The position numbers and the translations under genes were made by a program. DNA of 64,000 nt from Candidatus Eisenbergiella stercoravium (GTDB lineage: Bacteria > Bacillota > Clostridia > Lachnospirales > Lachnospiraceae), in NCBI GenBank assembly GCA_019113175.1, contig DXHY01000075.1, positions 1 to 64,000 of the forward strand, written 5' to 3'. This document shows positions 773-12,960 of this stretch, piece by piece. The notes below the pieces were generated by a model. It saw only the letters and a program-made list of their open reading frames with translations, was not told the DNA's origin and did not search any database. The first letter of the stretch is position 1; the number at the start of each line of letters is the position of its first letter.

Positions 773-1273
773 TTATCCAAATAGAGCACTAGCTAAATTT
801 TGTTGAGCTTTTATGCATTGCGCAATTAAGCGCTCTCCTTTTATGTCTAAATTTACTGTTTTGACTGTTGTACCAATAGGAACAGTGGACAAATCTAATT
901 CAGGAAAATCCATTTCTTCATTCCGAATATTCATTAAAGGTTCTAAGGCTTCTTTTAGACAATTATAATGTAAACGATTTTCACTCCAATTTTTAGAAAT
1001 ATTAGAGTGTTCAATAATTGCATTTTCTAATTTATCAAGTAAATCTTGAGGATATTTAATAGTATGCGTTATTGGAAATGTTGTATTTGTCATTTCGTCA
1101 TATGAAACATTAAATAGTGAAAGTAAAGAACACAATTCATTTATATCCGGTATAGCAGTTCCATTTTCCATTCTACAATATTTACTTTTACTAATATGAA
1201 TCGCATCAGCAACTTCCTGTTGACTTAATTTTGCTTTTGTTCTATAGATACGCAATTTATTTGAAATAGTCAT
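773..1273 (-). CDS. XRE-family HTH transcriptional regulator
   Basis: A 166-residue protein. Residues about 3-60 form a Cro/CI-type helix-turn-helix (KLSQQEVADAIHISKSKYCR matches the HTH core). The remaining 100 residues have no domain I recognise. I placed the start at the ATG at 1273 because AAGGAGTT lies 9 nt upstream; the longer reading to 1348 would run through the promoter. The gene and its flanks are much more AT-rich than the rest of the window and abut a transposase remnant, which suggests recent acquisition. No toxin partner is adjacent, so it is not obviously an antitoxin. Targets are unknown; many such proteins repress their own promoter. Confidence 0.85.
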   Translation of the reverse strand: MTISNKLRIYRTKAKLSQQEVADAIHISKSKYCRMENGTAIPDINELCSLLSLFNVSYDEMTNTTFPITHTIKYPQDLLDKLENAIIEHSNISKNWSENRLHYNCLKEALEPLMNIRNEEMDFPELDLSTVPIGTTVKTVNLDIKGERLIAQCIKAQQNLASALFG

Positions 1274-1319
1274 AATCGAAACAACTCCTTTTAAAAAATA
1301 TTTTTTTGTTTCAAATATG

Positions 1320-1348
1320 ATTATATATGGAGTACAAATAATTGTCAA
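1320..1348 (-). promoter_or_regulatory. Promoter of the XRE regulator
   Basis: On the minus strand TTGACA and TATAAT are separated by exactly 17 bp, a perfect sigma-A consensus, with the -10 about 47 bp upstream of the start codon. An AT-rich leader with a GAAACA/TGTTTC partial dyad lies between promoter and gene and could hold an operator, but this is weak. Confidence 0.8.
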
Positions 1349-1367: not shown

Positions 1368-2597
1368 TCAGTGCACCGCCAGATAAGCCTTAAGCTCCGC
1401 CACCTCTTCCGTCAGCAGTCCGGTAAAATAAACCGCTCCGTCCGGATTCAGATGATCCGCATCCCCAAAGTATTTCAGATTGGTCTGGAACCGCTCATCA
1501 TGGGAGTAATCATAATAGCTCACCCCGTATTCCAGCGCGATGTCGTTGATCACGGTGTAGAACTCATACAGGAAATCTGCCGAAACATACTGATTGTAGT
1601 AAACCGTAAACGGTGTGGTGATCAGCACCGGCGTAATGTTGTTCTCTTTGCAGAGCGTGATCAGATCGATCAGATACTGCTTCTTTTCTTCTTCAAAATA
1701 CTCATCCTTATTTTCAAAATGTCTCTGATATCTTGCCAGCCCTCTGGCTTCAAATTCCGCAACCGTTTCAGCACCATAGATCTCCTCCGGCGTGGCGGAT
1801 TCAGCCGTGCCGGTTTCGGATGTGGCGGATTCTGCCGTATTCGTATCCGCTGGCGTTGTTGTATTGTCAGAAACTGTCGGCTCTGCTGCGGTGGAAGCGG
1901 CGGCGTCAGCAGTCCCTTCCAAGGTTTCTGATACAGCTTCAGCCCCGTCCGTGGCGCCATCCGTCGTGTCCGCCGCCGTCTCTGCCGGGGATTCAGCTGC
2001 TGCCTCCGCCGCTGCGTCCGCCATTCCCGCCTCTGCCGCATAGGTGATATTTTTCTTATTCTCAGAGAGCGAAGGGAAAATAATGGGCGGCTTGAACAGT
2101 TCAAAGATCTCATCTCCCGCGGAAAGGATCGGAAAACGCACTGTGACCAGATCCTTGTACAGGCTGTAGTCCGGATTGTACCGGGGGGACAGGATCCGGT
2201 AGTACCGGACGCTGATGGCTTCCTGATCCGCCGGATCCGTGGCTTCCTCGTTGAAGGAGAAGTAGGAGATGGGGATGAAAAGAATGCTTCCGTCCGCAAA
2301 ATCGTCCTTATGCATGTTGATCAGGGAGTAATCGTACAGGAAGGACTGGCTGGTGAGGGCGAAGTTGAAGGTTTCATAGCCCCGTTCGTTCGCCAGGGCG
2401 TCCCAGTTGAAGGCGCACTGGCCATGGGAGCTGCCTGTATTGGCGAGCTGAATGTTGTGCGGAACAAAATTGAATACGTTGACCTCCGACATTCCGGTGC
2501 TCACCTTCTGTTCATACATCATGTCCAGATAGAACAGGCAGCAGAAGGTGATGCATACGGCGAGGACGCTTTTGACGATAAATTTTTTCATGGGCAT
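1368..2597 (-). CDS. SGNH-fold partner of an MBOAT acyltransferase (DltD/AlgX-like)
   Basis: About 409 residues. An N-terminal signal-anchor (residues 6-26) is followed by the SGNH block-I-like NTGSSHGQ near residue 55-60 with the candidate nucleophile Ser, and a C-terminal DADHLNPDGA that supplies the Asp-x-x-His pair. The gene starts about 10 bp after the MBOAT stop codon, so translation is probably coupled. In this family pairing the MBOAT protein moves an acyl group across the membrane and the extracellular SGNH protein places it on a surface polymer; the polymer is unknown. Residues about 190-275 are an Ala/Glu/Thr/Ser-rich low-complexity insert, unusual for the fold. In-frame alternative starts are GTG 2603 and ATG 2591; none has a strong ribosome binding site. 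Confidence 0.75.
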   Translation of the reverse strand: MPMKKFIVKSVLAVCITFCCLFYLDMMYEQKVSTGMSEVNVFNFVPHNIQLANTGSSHGQCAFNWDALANERGYETFNFALTSQSFLYDYSLINMHKDDFADGSILFIPISYFSFNEEATDPADQEAISVRYYRILSPRYNPDYSLYKDLVTVRFPILSAGDEIFELFKPPIIFPSLSENKKNITYAAEAGMADAAAEAAAESPAETAADTTDGATDGAEAVSETLEGTADAAASTAAEPTVSDNTTTPADTNTAESATSETGTAESATPEEIYGAETVAEFEARGLARYQRHFENKDEYFEEEKKQYLIDLITLCKENNITPVLITTPFTVYYNQYVSADFLYEFYTVINDIALEYGVSYYDYSHDERFQTNLKYFGDADHLNPDGAVYFTGLLTEEVAELKAYLAVH

Positions 2598-2607
2598 TTT
2601 CACTCTG

Positions 2608-4110
2608 TCAGAATTGCATGTAAATGAATTCTGTGGTTACTCCTTTCTCGGAAAAAAGCAGGATAACGAGCAAAAGCAGGATATAAACCGGCCAGCGGAT
2701 GAAAAAGCGCTGTCTGGAGATCAGGGCGATCACATCTGTTTTCAGGGAGAACAGATCGAAGAAAAACAGCGGAATCAGCGGCAGGCAGTGAAACAGCAGG
2801 CTGGTAAAGGTGAGCCCCATCTGAAGCGCGCAGTCGTGGATATAGGTATAGGGGGAACCGATGCCCGTGAACATGTTTTGGAGTACATAGAGCGCGTCCT
2901 GAAAGGTGGCGGCCCGGAAAAAGATCCAGGCAAAGCATACCAGCAGGAAGGTGACCGGAACGGTGACGATGCACAGCAGGGCATGCAGCCGTCTGTCGGT
3001 CTGGAAACGGGAACCTTTTTTGTTCCATGGGAAAAAGCCTTCGATGACCTGAAGCGCGCCATGAATGCCGCCCCAGAGCACATAGTTCCAGCTTGCGCCG
3101 TGCCACAGTCCGCTGACCAGGAAGGTGATCATGATGTTGAGTGCATGCCGGATGCGTCCCACCCGGTTTCCTCCCAGCGGGATATAGATATAGTCTCTCA
3201 GCCAGCTGGAAAGGGAGATATGCCATCTTCCCCAGAAATCCTTAATGGAAGAAGCAAAATAGGGGGAACGGAAGTTGGGGGACAGGCGGATGCCCAGAAT
3301 TCCGGCGGAACCAAGAGCGATATCCGTATATCCCGAGAAGTCGCAGTAAAGCTGAATGGCATAGAAAAAGGTGGCAAGCACCAGCGCAAAGCCGGTGAAG
3401 GATGTCAGATCGCCATAAACCTGGTTCACATAGATGGAAAGCCCGTCCGCCAGCACCAGCTTCTTGAAAAATCCCCAGGCCATCAGCTTCAGACTGTAGG
3501 AAGCCTCTTTGTAATGAAAACGGCGGGGCTTATGAAGCTGGGGAAGCAGGGAAGCTCCCCGTTCGATAGGGCCCTGCATGACCTTCGGGAAAAAGGAAAT
3601 GTATACCGCATAGATTCCGAAATGACGTTCCGCGGGGATTTTTCCTTTGTACACGTCAACCAGATAGCTGATCGTCTGAAACAGGTAGAAGGAAATTCCG
3701 ATGGGAAGCGCGAGCTTCAGGGTAAAGGGCTGCATGGGAATGGAAAACTGCTGCAGCAGGGCTGCTACGTTTTCAGAAAAGAAGTTCAGGTATTTAAAGA
3801 AAAACAAAAGTCCTGTGCAGAACAGAATGGACAGAACGAGGACGGTTTTGGCTGCGGAGGCTGCCCTCCGGCCCTTTCTGCCGTCCGGGGATCTGTCCCG
3901 TTTCTTTCCCGCCTGTTCCATATACAGTGCCGCATAATAGGAAATGACGATGGTGAGAAGCAGTACCAGAAGGTATTCCGGCCCCCACGAGGCATAGAAA
4001 AAAAAGCTGGCAGCCAGCAGAAGCACCCAGCGCCATTTTCTGGGAGTGACCCAGTGCAAAAGGAATATGACAGGCAGAAAAACGGCATAGCCGAATGAAT
4101 TAAACAGCAT
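2608..4110 (-). CDS. MBOAT-family membrane O-acyltransferase (AlgI-like)
   Basis: A 500-residue polytopic membrane protein of normal length for the AlgI/DltB branch. Diagnostic motifs are FWGRWHISLSSWLRDYIYIP at about residue 297 and SGLWHGASWNYVLWGGIHG at about residue 335, whose His is the catalytic residue in the family. The protein starts MLFNSFGYAVFLPVIFLLHW, typical of AlgI homologues. The start has an AAAGGGAT ribosome binding site. It lies directly upstream of its SGNH partner and downstream of a promoter at 4162-4191. It should transfer acetyl or another acyl group from a cytoplasmic donor to the outside; the acceptor polymer cannot be read from sequence. A second MBOAT-SGNH pair lies at 32.2-35.2 kb. 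Confidence 0.9.
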   Translation of the reverse strand: MLFNSFGYAVFLPVIFLLHWVTPRKWRWVLLLAASFFFYASWGPEYLLVLLLTIVISYYAALYMEQAGKKRDRSPDGRKGRRAASAAKTVLVLSILFCTGLLFFFKYLNFFSENVAALLQQFSIPMQPFTLKLALPIGISFYLFQTISYLVDVYKGKIPAERHFGIYAVYISFFPKVMQGPIERGASLLPQLHKPRRFHYKEASYSLKLMAWGFFKKLVLADGLSIYVNQVYGDLTSFTGFALVLATFFYAIQLYCDFSGYTDIALGSAGILGIRLSPNFRSPYFASSIKDFWGRWHISLSSWLRDYIYIPLGGNRVGRIRHALNIMITFLVSGLWHGASWNYVLWGGIHGALQVIEGFFPWNKKGSRFQTDRRLHALLCIVTVPVTFLLVCFAWIFFRAATFQDALYVLQNMFTGIGSPYTYIHDCALQMGLTFTSLLFHCLPLIPLFFFDLFSLKTDVIALISRQRFFIRWPVYILLLLVILLFSEKGVTTEFIYMQF

Positions 4111-4296: not shown

Positions 4297-6057
4297 TCAG
4301 CCCGCCCACTCGCCGTACAGAAATTCCTTCCTTGCTGCCAGGAAGGAACGGACCTGCTCCACCTGATTCAGGTAGGCCTGGCGTGCTGTTTCCACGAGGG
4401 AGGCTGTGGAGCTGTCTTCTGCGCCGGAGGGGATTGCTTCGGAACCGGGCTCTTCAGAACCGGCATCTTCGGAGAAGCCGGAATCCGCGCCGGGTGAGTT
4501 TTCCTCCCCGCCATTCAGCCGTCCCCAGCGCAGATAGTCCATCACCGCGCTGGCGGAAAGCTCCTGCGCCCATTGCGACAGGGTGGTTTCCACCAGCTCA
4601 TTCAGCCAGGGATACAGGACATTGGTATAAAGACTGACCACATCCTGGTAAAAGGCGTTGTTGTAATACAGAAGCTGCCACCAGATGAGGCTTCCCGGAA
4701 TATCACGGGCGGAAAAGCCGGTGGGATCCATATAGTTGATCTCCTCCTGGATGCGTTCCACCCCATAGGCCCAGTCGTAATCCCAGACCGGACCGGCGTA
4801 CAGCAGACCGCCCCGGTCTTTGTAAAAGTACTGGCTGGTGGAGGAGCAGTCGATATTTTTGCTCACCTCTTCCACAAGGTATTTCCCCACAAAGCTGGGG
4901 ATGTCAATCCAGGAAGAAAGGGATTCATAATCGTTCAGGCCCACGCTTTCGCGCATGACATTCTCGCACTCCTGGACATAGGAGGAGATGTACTGATACT
5001 GCGCTTCGGAAAGATATTCCGGTGATTTGGAAACCATATATGCGCCGCTTTCCAGAATGAATCCGCTGGCCTCGCCTGCGTAGCGCATGGCGTTGTCCGC
5101 CTCCAGGATGTAGCCTCCGGTGATGTTTTCCGGATCGCTTTCATAATCCCACCATTTTCCGGTGACGGACTGATTCCAGTCATCAAGCGTCAGGCCGGAG
5201 GTGAGCTGGTTCAGGTTATCTCCGCCCTGCAGGGGATTGGCCTGTTCGGTCAGCTCCTCCAGATCGGTGAGGTTCATGTTTTCCGGGGTAATCCGCTGAT
5301 ACAGCTCATATACGCCTTCAAAACTGTTGTTGATATACAGATTAACCCGGATGCAGGCCATGCTGCCGGTCCCCGCAAGTTCCCCCATTTCATTGGAGAT
5401 GCGGTTTCTCAGAAAGGTGAGGTCGCTGGAGGAGACCAGGGAATAGTCCGTTGTCTGGCCGGTCATGCCGGGGAGAAGGGCGGAATCCTCCAGTGTAATG
5501 TTATAAGGCTTTTTTTCCTGTTCCCAGCTGGTATTTCCCCTTCCCTTTATTTTTTCCAGCCCCCCGGAATAGACGGTTTCTCCGTCGCTGTCCAGAACTA
5601 CCGCCTGGCCGGAGTCTGACTGCTCCTTGTCCGAGCTGATGTGGGAAAGGTCATGCTTCAGCGTGAGATAAACGGAAGGGATCTGAGAGCCGGTCAGGAT
5701 GGTGAGCGTCTGTCCGCCGTCCAGCAGGAAGGTCTGGCCTGAGGAAAGGCGTGGAAGAGAAAGAGATATCCTGCGCTCACCGGAAGCTGTCTGAAGTTCT
5801 GCCCCCTCCGCCTGGAGCAGGCGGCCTTCAGCCCAGGAGGGCAGAAAAAGATAGTATTCCCCCGTATCGGAACACCAGGCGTCTACGGAAATGGAGGTCT
5901 CTTTGCTGGTGAGCTGGGCGGTGATGGCCGGAGTATCCCCGTCACCGGAGCGTATGCTGATAAATACGGTATACGACTGCTTCAGTCCTGACAGACAAAA
6001 CAGGAGAAAGACGCCGAAAAGCAGAAACAGTACCGTGACTTTCCATTTTTTGCACAT
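4297..6057 (-). CDS. CotH-family protein kinase, membrane anchored
   Basis: A 586-residue protein with an N-terminal membrane segment (residues 7-25). CotH-fold motifs are KGRGNTSWEQEKKPYN near residue 172, the Asp-x-x-x-x-RN segment (SDLTFLRNRIS), VNLYINNSFEGVYELYQ, and GPVWDYDWAYG near residue 425, whose Asp residues match the metal-binding part of CotH kinases. The C-terminal 60 residues are Ser/Glu/Gly-rich. CotH proteins phosphorylate surface proteins in spores, and homologues are frequently encoded beside VTC-domain and DUF4956 proteins, as here. That suggests an envelope role rather than a spore-coat role. The gene follows the DUF4956 gene by 18 bp, so the two are cotranscribed; the ribosome binding site AAGGAG overlaps the upstream gene's end. 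Confidence 0.85.
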   Translation of the reverse strand: MCKKWKVTVLFLLFGVFLLFCLSGLKQSYTVFISIRSGDGDTPAITAQLTSKETSISVDAWCSDTGEYYLFLPSWAEGRLLQAEGAELQTASGERRISLSLPRLSSGQTFLLDGGQTLTILTGSQIPSVYLTLKHDLSHISSDKEQSDSGQAVVLDSDGETVYSGGLEKIKGRGNTSWEQEKKPYNITLEDSALLPGMTGQTTDYSLVSSSDLTFLRNRISNEMGELAGTGSMACIRVNLYINNSFEGVYELYQRITPENMNLTDLEELTEQANPLQGGDNLNQLTSGLTLDDWNQSVTGKWWDYESDPENITGGYILEADNAMRYAGEASGFILESGAYMVSKSPEYLSEAQYQYISSYVQECENVMRESVGLNDYESLSSWIDIPSFVGKYLVEEVSKNIDCSSTSQYFYKDRGGLLYAGPVWDYDWAYGVERIQEEINYMDPTGFSARDIPGSLIWWQLLYYNNAFYQDVVSLYTNVLYPWLNELVETTLSQWAQELSASAVMDYLRWGRLNGGEENSPGADSGFSEDAGSEEPGSEAIPSGAEDSSTASLVETARQAYLNQVEQVRSFLAARKEFLYGEWAG

Positions 6058-6075: not shown

Positions 6076-6750
6076 TTAATAAACCGCTTCTCCGTCATGG
6101 GAGATGACGGAAGCGCTGAGCACGTGGTCGAGAGAGGAAACCGCGTCAAGAAGCTCGCTTTCCTGTCTGGTACGGCATTCCACGATGAGATCCGTTCCGT
6201 CCATGGTACGGTTGCGGGATTTGACCTTAAAGTTCTGCGTCAGCTTCTGAACGACCGGAAGAAGCTCTGCCTCTTTTCCTTCCCGATCCATGTTGACCAC
6301 CAGAAGAACGCTCATCCGGCCCTCAGGAACCAGCTCCAGAAGGAAGAGGAGAATGGTCACGACGATGGAAATGAGCAGGGCGAGCTCATAGTTGCGCGCG
6401 CCGAGGATGATTCCGATACCGATGGACCAGAAAAGAAAAAGCAGATCCTTCGGTTCCTTGACAGCGGTGCGGAAGCGGACAATGGACAGCGCGCCCACCA
6501 TACCGAGGGAGATGACCAGATTTGACTGCATCGCCAGGATGATGCCTGCCGTAATAATGGGCAGGACGCCGAGCACGATGTTGAACTGCTTGTTGTAAAA
6601 GCCCTTTTTCTGCGACAGATAGTAAACCGTATAGATGTAGATGCAGAACAGAATGGCGATGCCAAGCGTGATGCAGATGGAAGCTGTGGACAGTGTGCTG
6701 TTCTCCATTGTTTCCAGAATGGAGTTTTTGATGATATCCCGGAAGCTCAT
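6076..6750 (-). CDS. DUF4956 membrane protein
   Basis: A 224-residue protein with three or four membrane helices in the first 140 residues (around 20-45, 58-75, 78-90, 105-138) and a soluble C-terminal domain of about 80 residues. The central segment GALSIVRFRTAVKEPKDLLFLFWSI is characteristic of DUF4956 (given here only as a recognised family). Its biochemical role is not established. Genes of this family sit repeatedly between VTC-domain polyphosphate polymerases and CotH kinases, and this locus keeps that order. It lies 55 bp downstream of the VTC gene and 18 bp upstream of the CotH gene, with no terminator between them. Confidence 0.85.
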   Translation of the reverse strand: MSFRDIIKNSILETMENSTLSTASICITLGIAILFCIYIYTVYYLSQKKGFYNKQFNIVLGVLPIITAGIILAMQSNLVISLGMVGALSIVRFRTAVKEPKDLLFLFWSIGIGIILGARNYELALLISIVVTILLFLLELVPEGRMSVLLVVNMDREGKEAELLPVVQKLTQNFKVKSRNRTMDGTDLIVECRTRQESELLDAVSSLDHVLSASVISHDGEAVY

Positions 6751-6805: not shown

Positions 6806-7555
6806 TTAAATCAGCCGATTCGTATCTGAAAAGGAGAGGGAGGCTGTCTTCTGTGAGGTCCCGCTTAAAGCATGGCTTCTGCAGAGCACATACTTGGAAA
6901 AGGTGATCCGCTCCAGCTTTCCCGTATCCAGCGCCTTTCGGATAAAACCGGGGAGAAATTCATCGTATTTTACCTCCATGATATGCTGCCCGGCAGCCAT
7001 GACAGGCCGTTTGGGAAGCTCCTGATCCGGAAAGCGCAGCACATAATCGGAGGATGCCAGATTCCGGTCAAAGGTGACGCGTACGTTTCCATCCCGGCAG
7101 GTATAGGCGGTTCGTTCATACTCCACGATGATTCTCGGAAGAAGGCGGCGCAGCAGCATTTCCGTCTGCAGCAGCGTAAAAAGCGGTCTGTCGCCGCCGG
7201 CGGAACGAACCGCCCTCCCGCGAAGCAGGGAAAGGCATTCTGTTTCCGTAAGGCGGCAGCTTTTCTTCCGCGTGAGATCATGGGCTTTGATTTTCTGTTC
7301 CAGATGGATGGCATCCATGCTCTCGTTATAGATCCGGATCCGGAATTTGCTGCGGGGAGAGACTCCGCTCAGATTCTGCCGCAGGGCCGAGTCCTGCCAG
7401 TCGTCAAAGTAAACGCTCCGGATGCGGTAGGCGCCTTCCGGATGAAAGGCGTCCGGTTTCATCAGTGGACGGATTCTGGCAGTGATGAGGGCGATGTCCC
7501 TCTCGTCCACCAGAAATTTCTGCTCGTGACGGTATTTTTCCCTGAAACGGTCCAT
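6806..7555 (-). CDS. VTC-domain polyphosphate polymerase
   Basis: A 249-residue protein made up almost entirely of a VTC/CYTH-like triphosphate tunnel domain. Visible elements are FREKYRHEQKFLV, VYFDDW, KFRIRIYN, HLEQKIK, IVEYERTAY, VRVTFDRNL and IMEVKYDEFLP, which carry the basic and acidic tunnel residues that bind ATP and the growing polyphosphate. In VTC4 this domain makes polyphosphate from ATP; the bacterial orthologues are annotated by homology. I chose the ATG at 7555 because AAAGGAG lies 8 nt upstream; a TTG at 7600 is an in-frame alternative without a ribosome binding site. First gene of the VTC-DUF4956-CotH operon, controlled by the leader at 7619-7826. Confidence 0.88.
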   Translation of the reverse strand: MDRFREKYRHEQKFLVDERDIALITARIRPLMKPDAFHPEGAYRIRSVYFDDWQDSALRQNLSGVSPRSKFRIRIYNESMDAIHLEQKIKAHDLTRKKSCRLTETECLSLLRGRAVRSAGGDRPLFTLLQTEMLLRRLLPRIIVEYERTAYTCRDGNVRVTFDRNLASSDYVLRFPDQELPKRPVMAAGQHIMEVKYDEFLPGFIRKALDTGKLERITFSKYVLCRSHALSGTSQKTASLSFSDTNRLI

Positions 7556-7618
7556 GGCCGCTCCTTTCCCGGCGGCATTTCTGCCGCGTGATTTTTCCAA
7601 GAATGCATAAAAAGGCCG

Positions 7619-7667
7619 AAAAAAAGCTGCTCAGAATATAGTTATACCCATCTATATTCCGAACAAC
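7619..7667 (-). terminator. Intrinsic terminator inside the leader of the VTC operon
   Basis: On the minus strand a 16-bp stem (left arm 7667-7652, right arm 7641-7626, three G-U pairs, loop of 10 nt) is followed directly by seven T residues. Eight base pairs nearest the loop (GAATATAG / CTATATTC) are perfect. It ends about 60 nt upstream of the VTC start codon and downstream of the operon promoter, so it must be bypassed for the operon to be expressed. Confidence 0.88.
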
Positions 7668-7827
7668 ACCTGTATGAATGAAACGGCGGCCCGCCTTCAG
7701 GCTGTAAACCATCTCCCCTGTCCGGCATCGGATCCCTCTGACGGTTCAGACCTGCCGGTCCGTGATGAATCTTTGCAGTACATTTCCCTGTTTCCCCAAA
7801 AGACGGCGTCTGTGACACCCAATTGTT
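7668..7827 (-). promoter_or_regulatory. Structured leader RNA of the VTC operon, candidate riboswitch aptamer
   Basis: This is the stretch between the promoter at 7834-7862 and the terminator at 7619-7667, read on the minus strand. It contains a nested hairpin, ACCGGCA...TGCCGG enclosing TCTGA-ACCG-TCAGA, and unpaired purine-rich blocks GGGGAAAC, GGGAAATG and CTGCAAAG. GAAAC near the 5' end could pair with GTTTC just upstream of the terminator. The short purine-rich blocks are loosely reminiscent of c-di-GMP-I (GEMM) riboswitches, but the GGCAAAC and 3' receptor blocks do not match, so I do not assign a class. No convincing leader peptide or T-box motif was seen. Confidence 0.5.
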
Positions 7828-7833
7828 GAGTGT

Positions 7834-7862
7834 ATTATGGCAGAGCGGAAAGAAAAAGTCAA
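7834..7862 (-). promoter_or_regulatory. Promoter of the VTC-DUF4956-CotH operon
   Basis: The minus strand shows TTGACT, 17 bp, CATAAT, a good sigma-A match. Transcription would begin near 7827, giving a leader of about 270 nt before the VTC start codon. The remainder of 7863-7924 shows nothing else recognisable. Confidence 0.6.
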
Positions 7863-7924
7863 TATTATAGATGATATGGTATCGGATACGGCGCGGACGT
7901 TTTAAGGAAAGGATGATGGAGGCC

Positions 7925-7954
7925 GTGGCAGAAGTGGGAAAAATCTGATAAAAT
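7925..7954 (+). promoter_or_regulatory. Possible promoter of the GH28 gene
   Basis: GTGGCA, 18 bp, TAAAAT lies about 90 bp upstream of the GH28 start codon. The -35 is a weak match, so this is tentative. Confidence 0.35.
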
Positions 7955-8046
7955 AGGCGGAAAAAGACGGAATGCTCAACAGCTTTCTTTCCGGAAGGAA
8001 AAGAACGGAAAGAGGCGGGCGCAGGTATTTCAGATCGGAGGAGGAC

Positions 8047-9312
8047 ATGGACAGAAAAGAAGAGTATTTTCCTGACGGAACTCCCATTGACGGATGGTTT
8101 TATGAAAACCGGATTCCGTCCCTGGAGGAGCTGGGCAAGCCCTATGTGCTTACAGATTATGGGATTCTGGATGATGGGAGGATACATACGGAAGAGATTC
8201 AGCAGCTGATCGATACGGCATATGAAAATGGGGGAGGCGTGATCGTGGTTCCCCGTGGTACCTATCGGACTGGTTCCCTTTTCTTCCGGCAGGGCGTGCA
8301 TCTGTATGTGGAAGAGAGCGGTGTGCTGAAGGGCAGCGACGATATCAGCGATTATGCTCTGCGGCTGACCCGGATCGAAGGGGAGACCTGCCGGTATTTT
8401 GCGGCGCTGATCAATGCGGATGAGGTGGACGGCTTCACCATGTGCGGGCGTGGAACCATTGACGGAAACGGACTGCGTTCCTGGAAGGCCTTCTGGCTGC
8501 GTCGGGACTGGAATCCTTCCTGTACCAACAAGGACGAGCAGAGGCCCAGGCTGGTATACATTTCCCACAGCAGGAACGTGCGGATCGCGGGACTTCATCT
8601 GATTAATGCCCATTTCTGGACCACGCATATCTATAAATGCGATCATGTGAAGTATCTGGGCTGCTCGATCTGCTCGCCGGCCTCTCCGGTGAAAGCGCCC
8701 AGTACGGACGCGATTGACATTGATGCCTGCACGGATGTACTGGTCAAGGATTGTTATCTGGAGGTGAATGATGATTCCGTCGTCCTGAAGGGAGGAAAGG
8801 GGCCATGGGCGGATCAGATGAAAGAGAACGGCAGCAATGAAAGAATTCTGGTGGAGGACTGTACCTATGGCTTCTGCCATGGCTGCCTGACCTGCGGTTC
8901 GGAATCCGTGCATAACAGAAACATTCTCATGCGCCGCATAAAGGTGAAAGAGGGGCATAATCTGCTGTGGCTGAAAATGCGTCCGGACACCCCGCAGCAT
9001 TACGAATATATCACGGTGGAGGATGTGGAAGGAAAAATTGATAATTTCCTCAACATCAATCCCTGGACCCAGTTTTTTGACCGGAAGGGCAGAACGGATC
9101 TGCCCATTTCCCGGGCAGATCACATCGTGATGAGAAACTGCAGCTGCGAGTGCGGCACGTATTTTAATGTACAGCGGGAGGATGCTCAGTACCGCCTCTC
9201 CGATTTCACCTTTGAAAATCTGCGGATCCGGGCAGAAAAGGATGGCTTTGACCGGGAGGCGGCAGAGAACATTTCCCTGAAAAACGTACAGGTGGAATGT
9301 AAGGATGCGTAA
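8047..9312 (+). CDS. Glycoside hydrolase family 28 (polygalacturonase-like)
   Basis: A 421-residue right-handed beta-helix protein. The GH28 signature is present in order: STDAIDIDAC (for the usual NTDG-D), EVNDDSVVLKGG with the paired catalytic Asp residues, FCHGCLTCGSE (for G-H-G), and LLWLKM near the position of the substrate-binding R-x-K. The first 90 residues contain the typical pectate-lyase-3-like LIDTAYENGGGVIVVPRGTY. No signal peptide is visible, so it probably acts in the cytoplasm on oligosaccharides. The start at 8047 has CGGAGGAGG directly upstream; the in-frame ATG at 7972 has no such site. GH28 enzymes cleave galacturonic acid or rhamnogalacturonan linkages; the exact substrate is unclear. 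It stands alone between two minus-strand operons. Confidence 0.88.
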   Translation: MDRKEEYFPDGTPIDGWFYENRIPSLEELGKPYVLTDYGILDDGRIHTEEIQQLIDTAYENGGGVIVVPRGTYRTGSLFFRQGVHLYVEESGVLKGSDDISDYALRLTRIEGETCRYFAALINADEVDGFTMCGRGTIDGNGLRSWKAFWLRRDWNPSCTNKDEQRPRLVYISHSRNVRIAGLHLINAHFWTTHIYKCDHVKYLGCSICSPASPVKAPSTDAIDIDACTDVLVKDCYLEVNDDSVVLKGGKGPWADQMKENGSNERILVEDCTYGFCHGCLTCGSESVHNRNILMRRIKVKEGHNLLWLKMRPDTPQHYEYITVEDVEGKIDNFLNINPWTQFFDRKGRTDLPISRADHIVMRNCSCECGTYFNVQREDAQYRLSDFTFENLRIRAEKDGFDREAAENISLKNVQVECKDA

Positions 9313-12205: not shown

Positions 12206-12889
12206 CTAGTCCGGGCTTCCCACAATGTGTCCGTCCTCGATGTGGATGACCCGGTCTGCCATCCGGGCGATTTCCGGATTATGGGTGATCATGACGATGG
12301 TCTGGTGAAATTCCCGGCTGGTCATTTTCAGAAGGCCGATCACATCGTCGCTGGTCCGGGTGTCAAGATTCCCGGTGGGCTCATCGGCCAGGATGATGGA
12401 GGGCTTGCTTGCGAGGGCCCTTGCGATCGCAACACGCTGCTGCTGGCCGCCGGAGAGCTGGTTCGGAAGGCTGTCCAGCTTCTTTTCCAGCCCCAGGAGC
12501 TGAACGATTTTCATGATGAATTTCCGATCCGGCCTGCGGCCGTCCAGGGAAATAGGAAGGATGATGTTTTCCCACACGTTCAGGACCGGCACCAGATTAT
12601 AGTTCTGGAACACGAAGCCGATCTGCTTGCGCCGGAACACGGTGGCCTCCTCGCTATTCAGCTTCGCAAGCTCTGTATGATCCACCAGGATGCTCCCAGC
12701 GCTCGGTGTGTCAAGCCCTCCGAGCATGTTCAACAGAGTGGACTTGCCGGATCCGGAGGTTCCGATGATGGCGGTGAATTTTCCCCGTTCGATGTCCAGA
12801 TTCACGTTGTCCAGGGCACGGACCTCCGTTTCTCCCTTTCCATAATATTTTTTCAGGCCTCTGGCCTGCAGGATGATATCGTTGTTCAT
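12206..12889 (-). CDS. ABC transporter ATP-binding protein (MacB/LolD type)
   Basis: A 227-residue ATPase. Walker A is GTSGSGKST, the Q-loop lies in [10 protein letters not shown], the signature is [15 protein letters not shown], Walker B is [12 protein letters not shown], and the switch His is in [30 protein letters not shown] is typical of the MacB/LolD group. I chose the ATG at 12889 because AAGGAGG lies 7 nt upstream; the longer frame to 12937 lacks one. It partners the permease at 9413-12106. A dyad at 12961-12984 upstream may be an operator. Confidence 0.93.
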
Positions 12890-12960
12890 GTCTGCCTCCT
12901 TGCCGAACTGTTTTTGTTTCTGTAAAGAAAATATCATGCCAGTGTTACGGTGAAGGTACT

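Follow-up and report, generated by a model that had tools for sequence, protein, structure and literature searches.

Leaders in which RNA polymerase pauses before a terminator are the closest described counterparts of the locus considered here. Two thirds of NusA-stimulated leader pauses lie upstream of known attenuators (excerpt of PMC12288461), and in the cases known from such accounts, pausing serves a second input, namely FMN, TRAP or a stalled ribosome (excerpts of PMC12288461 and PMC9226507). The vmlR leader presents the order pause hairpin, TTNTTT and terminator, and mutation of its pause hairpin is described as having little effect in vivo (excerpt of PMC9226507). Y77, N81 and T82 are given as the pausing residues of NusG, and the first two T residues of the pause motif are numbered -12 and -11, a numbering from which that of a review differs slightly (excerpt of PMC8060035). 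The LoaP-associated dfn and mln leaders carry near-identical UNCG hairpins and combine a small early hairpin, a pause and a terminator (excerpt of PMC12691694). With regard to the genes, those for polyphosphate polymerase, DUF4956 and CotH accompany some Pel clusters of Gram-positive bacteria as accessory genes (excerpt of PMC7112168, the main text of which does not contain the word riboswitch), and in a Clostridium perfringens locus a VTC-domain gene is separated from a CotH gene by a single other gene (excerpt of PMC2879425). Full-text searching, judged on titles and the openings of abstracts, returned no publication on the regulation of VTC-DUF4956-CotH operons, and a full-text search returned none with both Eisenbergiella and riboswitch.

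The window, that is, the whole stretch of 64,000 nucleotides from Candidatus Eisenbergiella stercoravium that was analysed, contains such an operon on its minus strand. Judged from the sequences compared, its leader is conserved, clade-restricted and laid out like a transcription attenuator with a pause-like core, from which we infer pausing.

Promoter, terminator and the operon downstream

The features of the locus are collected in Table 1. A preliminary description of the window had proposed a VTC-DUF4956-CotH operon, and all three families were confirmed by Pfam, with MBOAT and DltD-like genes following. The order VTC-DUF4956-CotH-MBOAT-DltD also occurs in L040, L041, L042, L044 and L045; L039 and L043 are stretches that stop inside the operon and cover its gene order in part. 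Beyond the operon, which is richer in GC, lies an AT-rich helix-turn-helix gene of the XRE type (773-1348, minus strand) with a promoter-like TTGACA...TATAAT immediately upstream. This gene has no match in L039-L045, and L046 has a 36% HTH match upstream of VTC.

Table 1. Coordinates of the leader and operon features in the window
Feature	Position	Strand	Remark
Sigma-A-type promoter TTGACT-17-CATAAT, extended -10 (TGC)	7834..7862	-	10/12 consensus
Hairpin P1, GGTGTC-ACA-GACGCC	7805..7819	-	hairpin at that place in seven leaders
Conserved GTCTTTTGGGGA, T-rich non-template tract	7793..7804	-	placed like NusG pause motif
Purine block AGGGAAA	7783..7789	-	AGGAGA or GGGAGA in relatives
Variable insert (aptamer region of the preliminary description)	7671..7782	-	length and sequence vary in relatives
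Intrinsic terminator, 16-bp stem, 10-nt loop, T7	7619..7667	-	stem conserved and covarying
Spacer, terminator to VTC	7556..7618	-	AAAGGAG ribosome-binding site 7567-7561
VTC-domain protein, first gene	6806..7555	-	Pfam PF09359, E = 4.8e-42
DUF4956 protein	6076..6750	-	Pfam PF16316, E = 1.3e-13
CotH-domain protein	4297..6057	-	Pfam PF08757, E = 2.7e-25
MBOAT O-acyltransferase	2608..4110	-	Pfam PF03062, E = 7.9e-27
DltD-like protein, last gene of the conserved unit	1368..2603	-	Pfam PF04914, E = 1.5e-05

The promoter named in the preliminary description proved to be the sole minus-strand promoter-like site in 7500-8100, and its hexamers recur identically in all seven leader-bearing species with the same 17-bp spacing and a TG before the -10 box; the transcript start predicted from it is at about 7827. 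The terminator that had been noted upstream of VTC is equally present, with 7667-7652 pairing with 7641-7626 around a loop at 7651-7642 and the seven T residues at 7625-7619. Covariation in homologous leaders, which the preliminary description had named as a check on its stems, is found for this stem: across the seven leaders, 97.3% of its cells are paired (38-50% when the stem is slid) and both sides have changed in 4 of 16 pairs. The hexamer GTTGTT of the 5' arm is invariant in all seven, two of its pairing partners vary, and the loop keeps an invariant GG and A. A weak promoter-like site lies within the terminator stem in L005 and L006. The distance from the -10 box to the end of the terminator ranges from 106 to 233 nt across the seven species.

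The VTC start codon (ATG, 7555-7553) lies 63 nt past the terminator, and the corresponding spacer measures 58-64 nt across the seven species. The idea of a structured hairpin in the spacer, ahead of the ribosome-binding site, was rejected, as equally stable hairpins arose in 16, 86, 44, 0, 8, 10 and 32 of 100 shuffles (L001-L007). In the same spacer, a terminator-like hairpin with a T run is found in the opposite orientation (7570-7587, plus strand), and it could stop antisense transcription.

Distribution of the leader

A search with the leader DNA matched 7 of 13 genomes of the same genus, always before the VTC orthologue, and a model of the terminator (R1) finds these seven leader-bearing genomes at E <= 4.3e-16. 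These genomes coincide exactly with those whose VTC reaches 75% identity; of the other six, five have VTC matches of at most 45% only and one has no match. Since the L040 and L041 leaders are identical, seven distinct leaders are available. The window (L001) has an oppositely oriented GH28 gene as upstream neighbour, L002 and L006 have an FtsX-type permease there, L004, L005 and L007 a phosphoketolase, and L003 an AAA ATPase; with four kinds of neighbour, the block from the -35 box to VTC can be regarded as one unit, promoter and leader going with the operon. Together with the lack of any promoter-like site in the terminator-VTC spacer of each of the seven species, this supports the attenuator layout that had been proposed from the window alone.

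From these comparisons, the leader appears to occur only in a single Eisenbergiella clade among the genomes examined. The VTC-DUF4956-CotH locus L046, which is more distant (55% VTC identity), lacks it, and in the wider family, where 147 of 200 genomes have a VTC match and 29 loci were read, the core motif with up to two substitutions is absent from about 450 nt upstream of VTC in the 28 placeable loci (L029 was not placeable). As a separate observation on the 13 genomes, CsrA is encoded in five Eisenbergiella genomes, all leaderless, and in none of the seven that bear the leader, and the genus may be split into two clades by these CsrA and leader traits.

Among the matches inspected, no second copy of the leader was recognised in the 13 genomes of the genus or the 299 of the family. 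The pattern TCTTTTGGGGA-N1-9-GGAGA gave 12 matches in the 299 family genomes, while the reversed pattern, used as control, was found in about five genomes. At eleven of them the site falls in an open frame on the same strand that spans 144-866 codons from stop to stop, and at L126 in one of 63 codons. Promoter-like sites are missing from the 120 nt upstream of all 12, and a run of six T follows within 200 nt at L122 and L126 only, so none of the 12 looks like this leader. In the genus, the terminator model gave 17 weaker matches at E <= 1 besides the seven leaders; the four that were inspected, L140, L149, L146 and L136, are other terminators or a dispersed repeat, L144 and L150 are the opposite strand of the leader itself, and the remaining 11 have E values of 0.05 to 0.92. 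In the family, under stricter filters, two further matches in one genome belong to the same repeat. This repeat is a terminator-like hairpin (GCTGTCGCAT...) present in two nearly identical copies in the present genome (G000:C7:68-141 and 12836-12908; L140, L149) and twice in a genome of another genus (G116:C1:685395-685468 and 67594-67667; L155, L156), where the two copies share downstream sequence; the repeat resembles a mobile-element end.

The same layout would also be that of a gene for a trans-acting free small RNA some 100-230 nt long, with the operon expressed by leakage or otherwise, and the G-rich conserved single-stranded stretch would suit such a molecule. That all seven matches lie directly before VTC, with no other copy recognised and no promoter-like site in the spacer before VTC, and that the length varies about twofold, makes this alternative improbable.

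Conserved core, variable insert and candidate sensors

Upstream of the terminator, only a small core is common to all seven leaders, consisting of a P1-type hairpin, the motif UUGGGGA or UAGGGGA, and the purine block. The hairpin varies in sequence, length and loop among relatives and ends 0-2 nt before UCUU in 7/7; a hairpin as stable at that place was obtained in 0, 2, 4, 0, 2, 0 and 0 of 40 shuffles (L001-L007). After UCUU the leaders carry UUGGGGA, or UAGGGGA in one, the core motif being TCTTTTGGGGA in six of the seven species and TCTTAGGGGA in L002. As a side observation, ACACTCAA can pair with TTGGGTGT within 7833-7815 (minus strand) and would compete with P1; this pairing is probably not made as RNA, since most of its 5' strand precedes the expected start.

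The preliminary description had placed a ligand-sensing RNA between promoter and terminator, in about 160 nt with nested dyads and purine blocks. The larger stretch 7835-7600, which starts some bases before the expected transcript start, does fold somewhat better than shuffled sequence (z = -1.71; 9/200 shuffles as good), whereas 7792-7671 does not (z = +0.36; 118/200) and is mostly unalignable with relatives. The distance from GGGGA to the terminator, purine block counted, ranges from 13 to 123 nt in the seven species and is only 13 nt in the close relative L003. This stretch is alignable among L004, L005 and L007, and other leader pairs exceed shuffles through the purine block and a few T-rich bases after it. 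The insert of the window resembles relatives only in pieces of about 20 nt, and no conserved aptamer domain was found in 7792-7671 across the homologous leaders. One such piece, 7722-7703 (GACAGGGGAGATGGTTTACA), is similar to what comes after GGGGA in relatives, namely the purine block and T-rich element (the mid-insert match to L005, L007 and L002 was reached by 2, 2 and 8 of 200 shuffles), and the last 20 nt of the insert resemble L007 (1/200 shuffles). Since the best match of the element is at 7722-7703, the window leader has gained either about 70 nt ahead of the element or a duplicate of it. At 7762-7703 (minus strand), a stem CCGGCA/TGCCGG is followed directly by ACAGGGGAGATGGTTT, as if the hairpin-plus-purine-block module were repeated. 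The long insert of the window would thus be mostly spacer rather than sensor.

A search of Rfam, which the preliminary description had named as a check, found no family at gathering score in the window or in the loci of six relatives. At E <= 10 there were four chance-level matches (E 2.9 to 8), and c-di-GMP-I, to which a loose similarity had been reported, was not among them; c-di-GMP-I and other Rfam riboswitches were rejected, as no covariance model matched. A shared antiterminator is likewise rejected. Upstream pairing of the terminator 5' arm was equalled in 25, 37, 57, 38, 22, 55 and 2 of 60 shuffles (L001-L007) and exceeds shuffles only in L007, and a 5-bp RCAU/GUGUU pairing seen by eye before the terminator in some leaders was dropped, as the shuffle test gave it no general support. 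With its putative aptamer reduced to a mostly variable insert, no Rfam match and antiterminator pairing above shuffles in one leader of seven, the ligand-sensing RNA as first proposed is not borne out.

Very small aptamers exist, preQ1-I being an example. With this precedent, a small riboswitch might be formed by the core itself, P1, UCUUUUGGGGA and the purine block binding a metabolite or ion and controlling the terminator. The promoter-leader-terminator layout and the conservation of GGGGA and the purine block, for which no pairing partner is obvious, would fit such an element; however, the missing Rfam match, the variability of P1 in length, loop and sequence, the antiterminator result and the want of a recognised second copy render it unlikely.

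The conserved GGGGA and GGGAGA, the invariant GG and A of the terminator loop and the invariant GTTGTT with its varying partners could also mark the binding site of a clade-specific RNA-binding protein acting in antitermination on the purine-rich core or the terminator loop. We consider this quite unlikely, since no candidate was found when LoaP and CsrA were looked for. In leader-bearing genomes, a LoaP model gave no more than one match each, none of which reached the cut-off, and G008 had no match at all. LoaP antitermination was rejected with 0 of 13 genus genomes above the cut-off, in a search that has no positive control, as 0 of 14 control genomes exceeded it either. Control by CsrA fitted the GGGGA/GGGAGA motif, but the protein is absent from all seven leader-bearing genomes and present in 5/6 others.

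Ribosome-dependent attenuation through a leader peptide is very improbable. The purine block resembles a ribosome-binding site and is closely followed by AUG in L001, L003 and L006, but a start codon with a ribosome-binding site is missing in 3/7 leaders and the peptides predicted from the other four are unrelated; a leader peptide was rejected, as no open reading frame with a ribosome-binding site is common to the seven leaders.

Proposed pausing at the core and comparison with known systems

The reading that we tentatively prefer, with a chance falling just short of even, is that the VTC-DUF4956-CotH-MBOAT-DltD operon is controlled by a promoter-proximal pause-and-terminate attenuator, which general elongation factors would tune. 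RNA polymerase would form P1 and pause about 10-12 nt further on, with NusG holding the T-rich non-template tract and NusA helping the P1 hairpin during the pause. The polymerase would then meet the terminator, where most transcripts would end at 7619-7625, and a fraction would read through into VTC, its size governed by how much the polymerase pauses and how efficiently it terminates (NusA, NusG, elongation rate). Given a pause-like hairpin and a strong terminator before VTC, expression probably depends on how frequently polymerase passes.

The geometry of the core is consistent with this proposal. In 7/7 leaders, the P1-type hairpin ends about 11-13 nt from the predicted 3' end of the paused transcript, the criterion of the class being 11-12 nt. 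With TCTTTT at -11 to -6, GGGGA occupies -5 to -1 and the end of P1 about -12 to -14; the GTCTTT register shifts these positions by one. The tract reads TCTTTT, GTCTTT or ATCTTT in six of the seven, with one mismatch to TTNTTT in either register. L002 has TCTTAG at this place and, some 20 nt downstream, a perfect TTCTTT preceded by a hairpin (0/40 shuffles), as if its pause site had moved. A pause-site scan ranked the P1 site best in five leaders (L003-L007; 0, 1, 3, 0 and 0 of 40 shuffles as good), while in the window leader L001 another site outscores it and 8/40 shuffles were as good. A NusG-like protein, looked at in this genome only, contains WYVVRNT, in which the Tyr, Asn and Thr corresponding to Y77, N81 and T82 of B. 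subtilis are retained. The residue numbering is from the solved chain 8ehq_G, which we take to be B. subtilis NusG. As for a second input to pausing, none was found when a shared uORF and a known aptamer were looked for, and the conservation of the terminator loop and of GGGGA is more than pausing alone would explain.

If this reading is true, a surface operon of a gut bacterium is gated at elongation by general factors, and NusG-type pausing control extends to the Lachnospiraceae. The locus also illustrates that an aptamer-like stretch in one genome can prove mostly spacer once relatives are compared. A broader proposal, which we regard as doubtful, is a minimal class of attenuator in which hairpin, UCUUUUGGGGA and purine block constitute the only conserved sensor, either with NusG pausing itself as the input and no ligand, uORF or dedicated protein involved, or with the core of about 30 nt binding a ligand or protein that controls surface-polymer genes.

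Compared with described systems, the grouping of gene families is that of the accessory genes of Gram-positive Pel clusters (as excerpted from PMC7112168), whereas the Eisenbergiella operon continues with MBOAT and DltD-like genes. The c-di-GMP-I riboswitch has the same succession of promoter, structured leader and terminator, but the leader has no match to it at E <= 10 and the stretch concerned is mostly unalignable with relatives. The LoaP-dependent dfn and mln leaders likewise place an early small hairpin, a pause and a terminator before a long operon (as excerpted from PMC12691694); in contrast to them, P1 is not conserved in sequence or loop and no LoaP lies above the cut-off in the 13 genomes. 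The vmlR, tlrB, ribD and trp leaders of B. subtilis resemble the Eisenbergiella leader in having a pause hairpin, a T-rich tract at matching distance and a terminator before the first gene, and a NusG with the pause-specific residues is common to those attenuators and this genome, whereas the Eisenbergiella leader has no shared uORF or known aptamer, carries a tract one base off TTNTTT and precedes another operon. The kind of attenuator is already known, and the Eisenbergiella leader would be a new, clade-restricted example of it.
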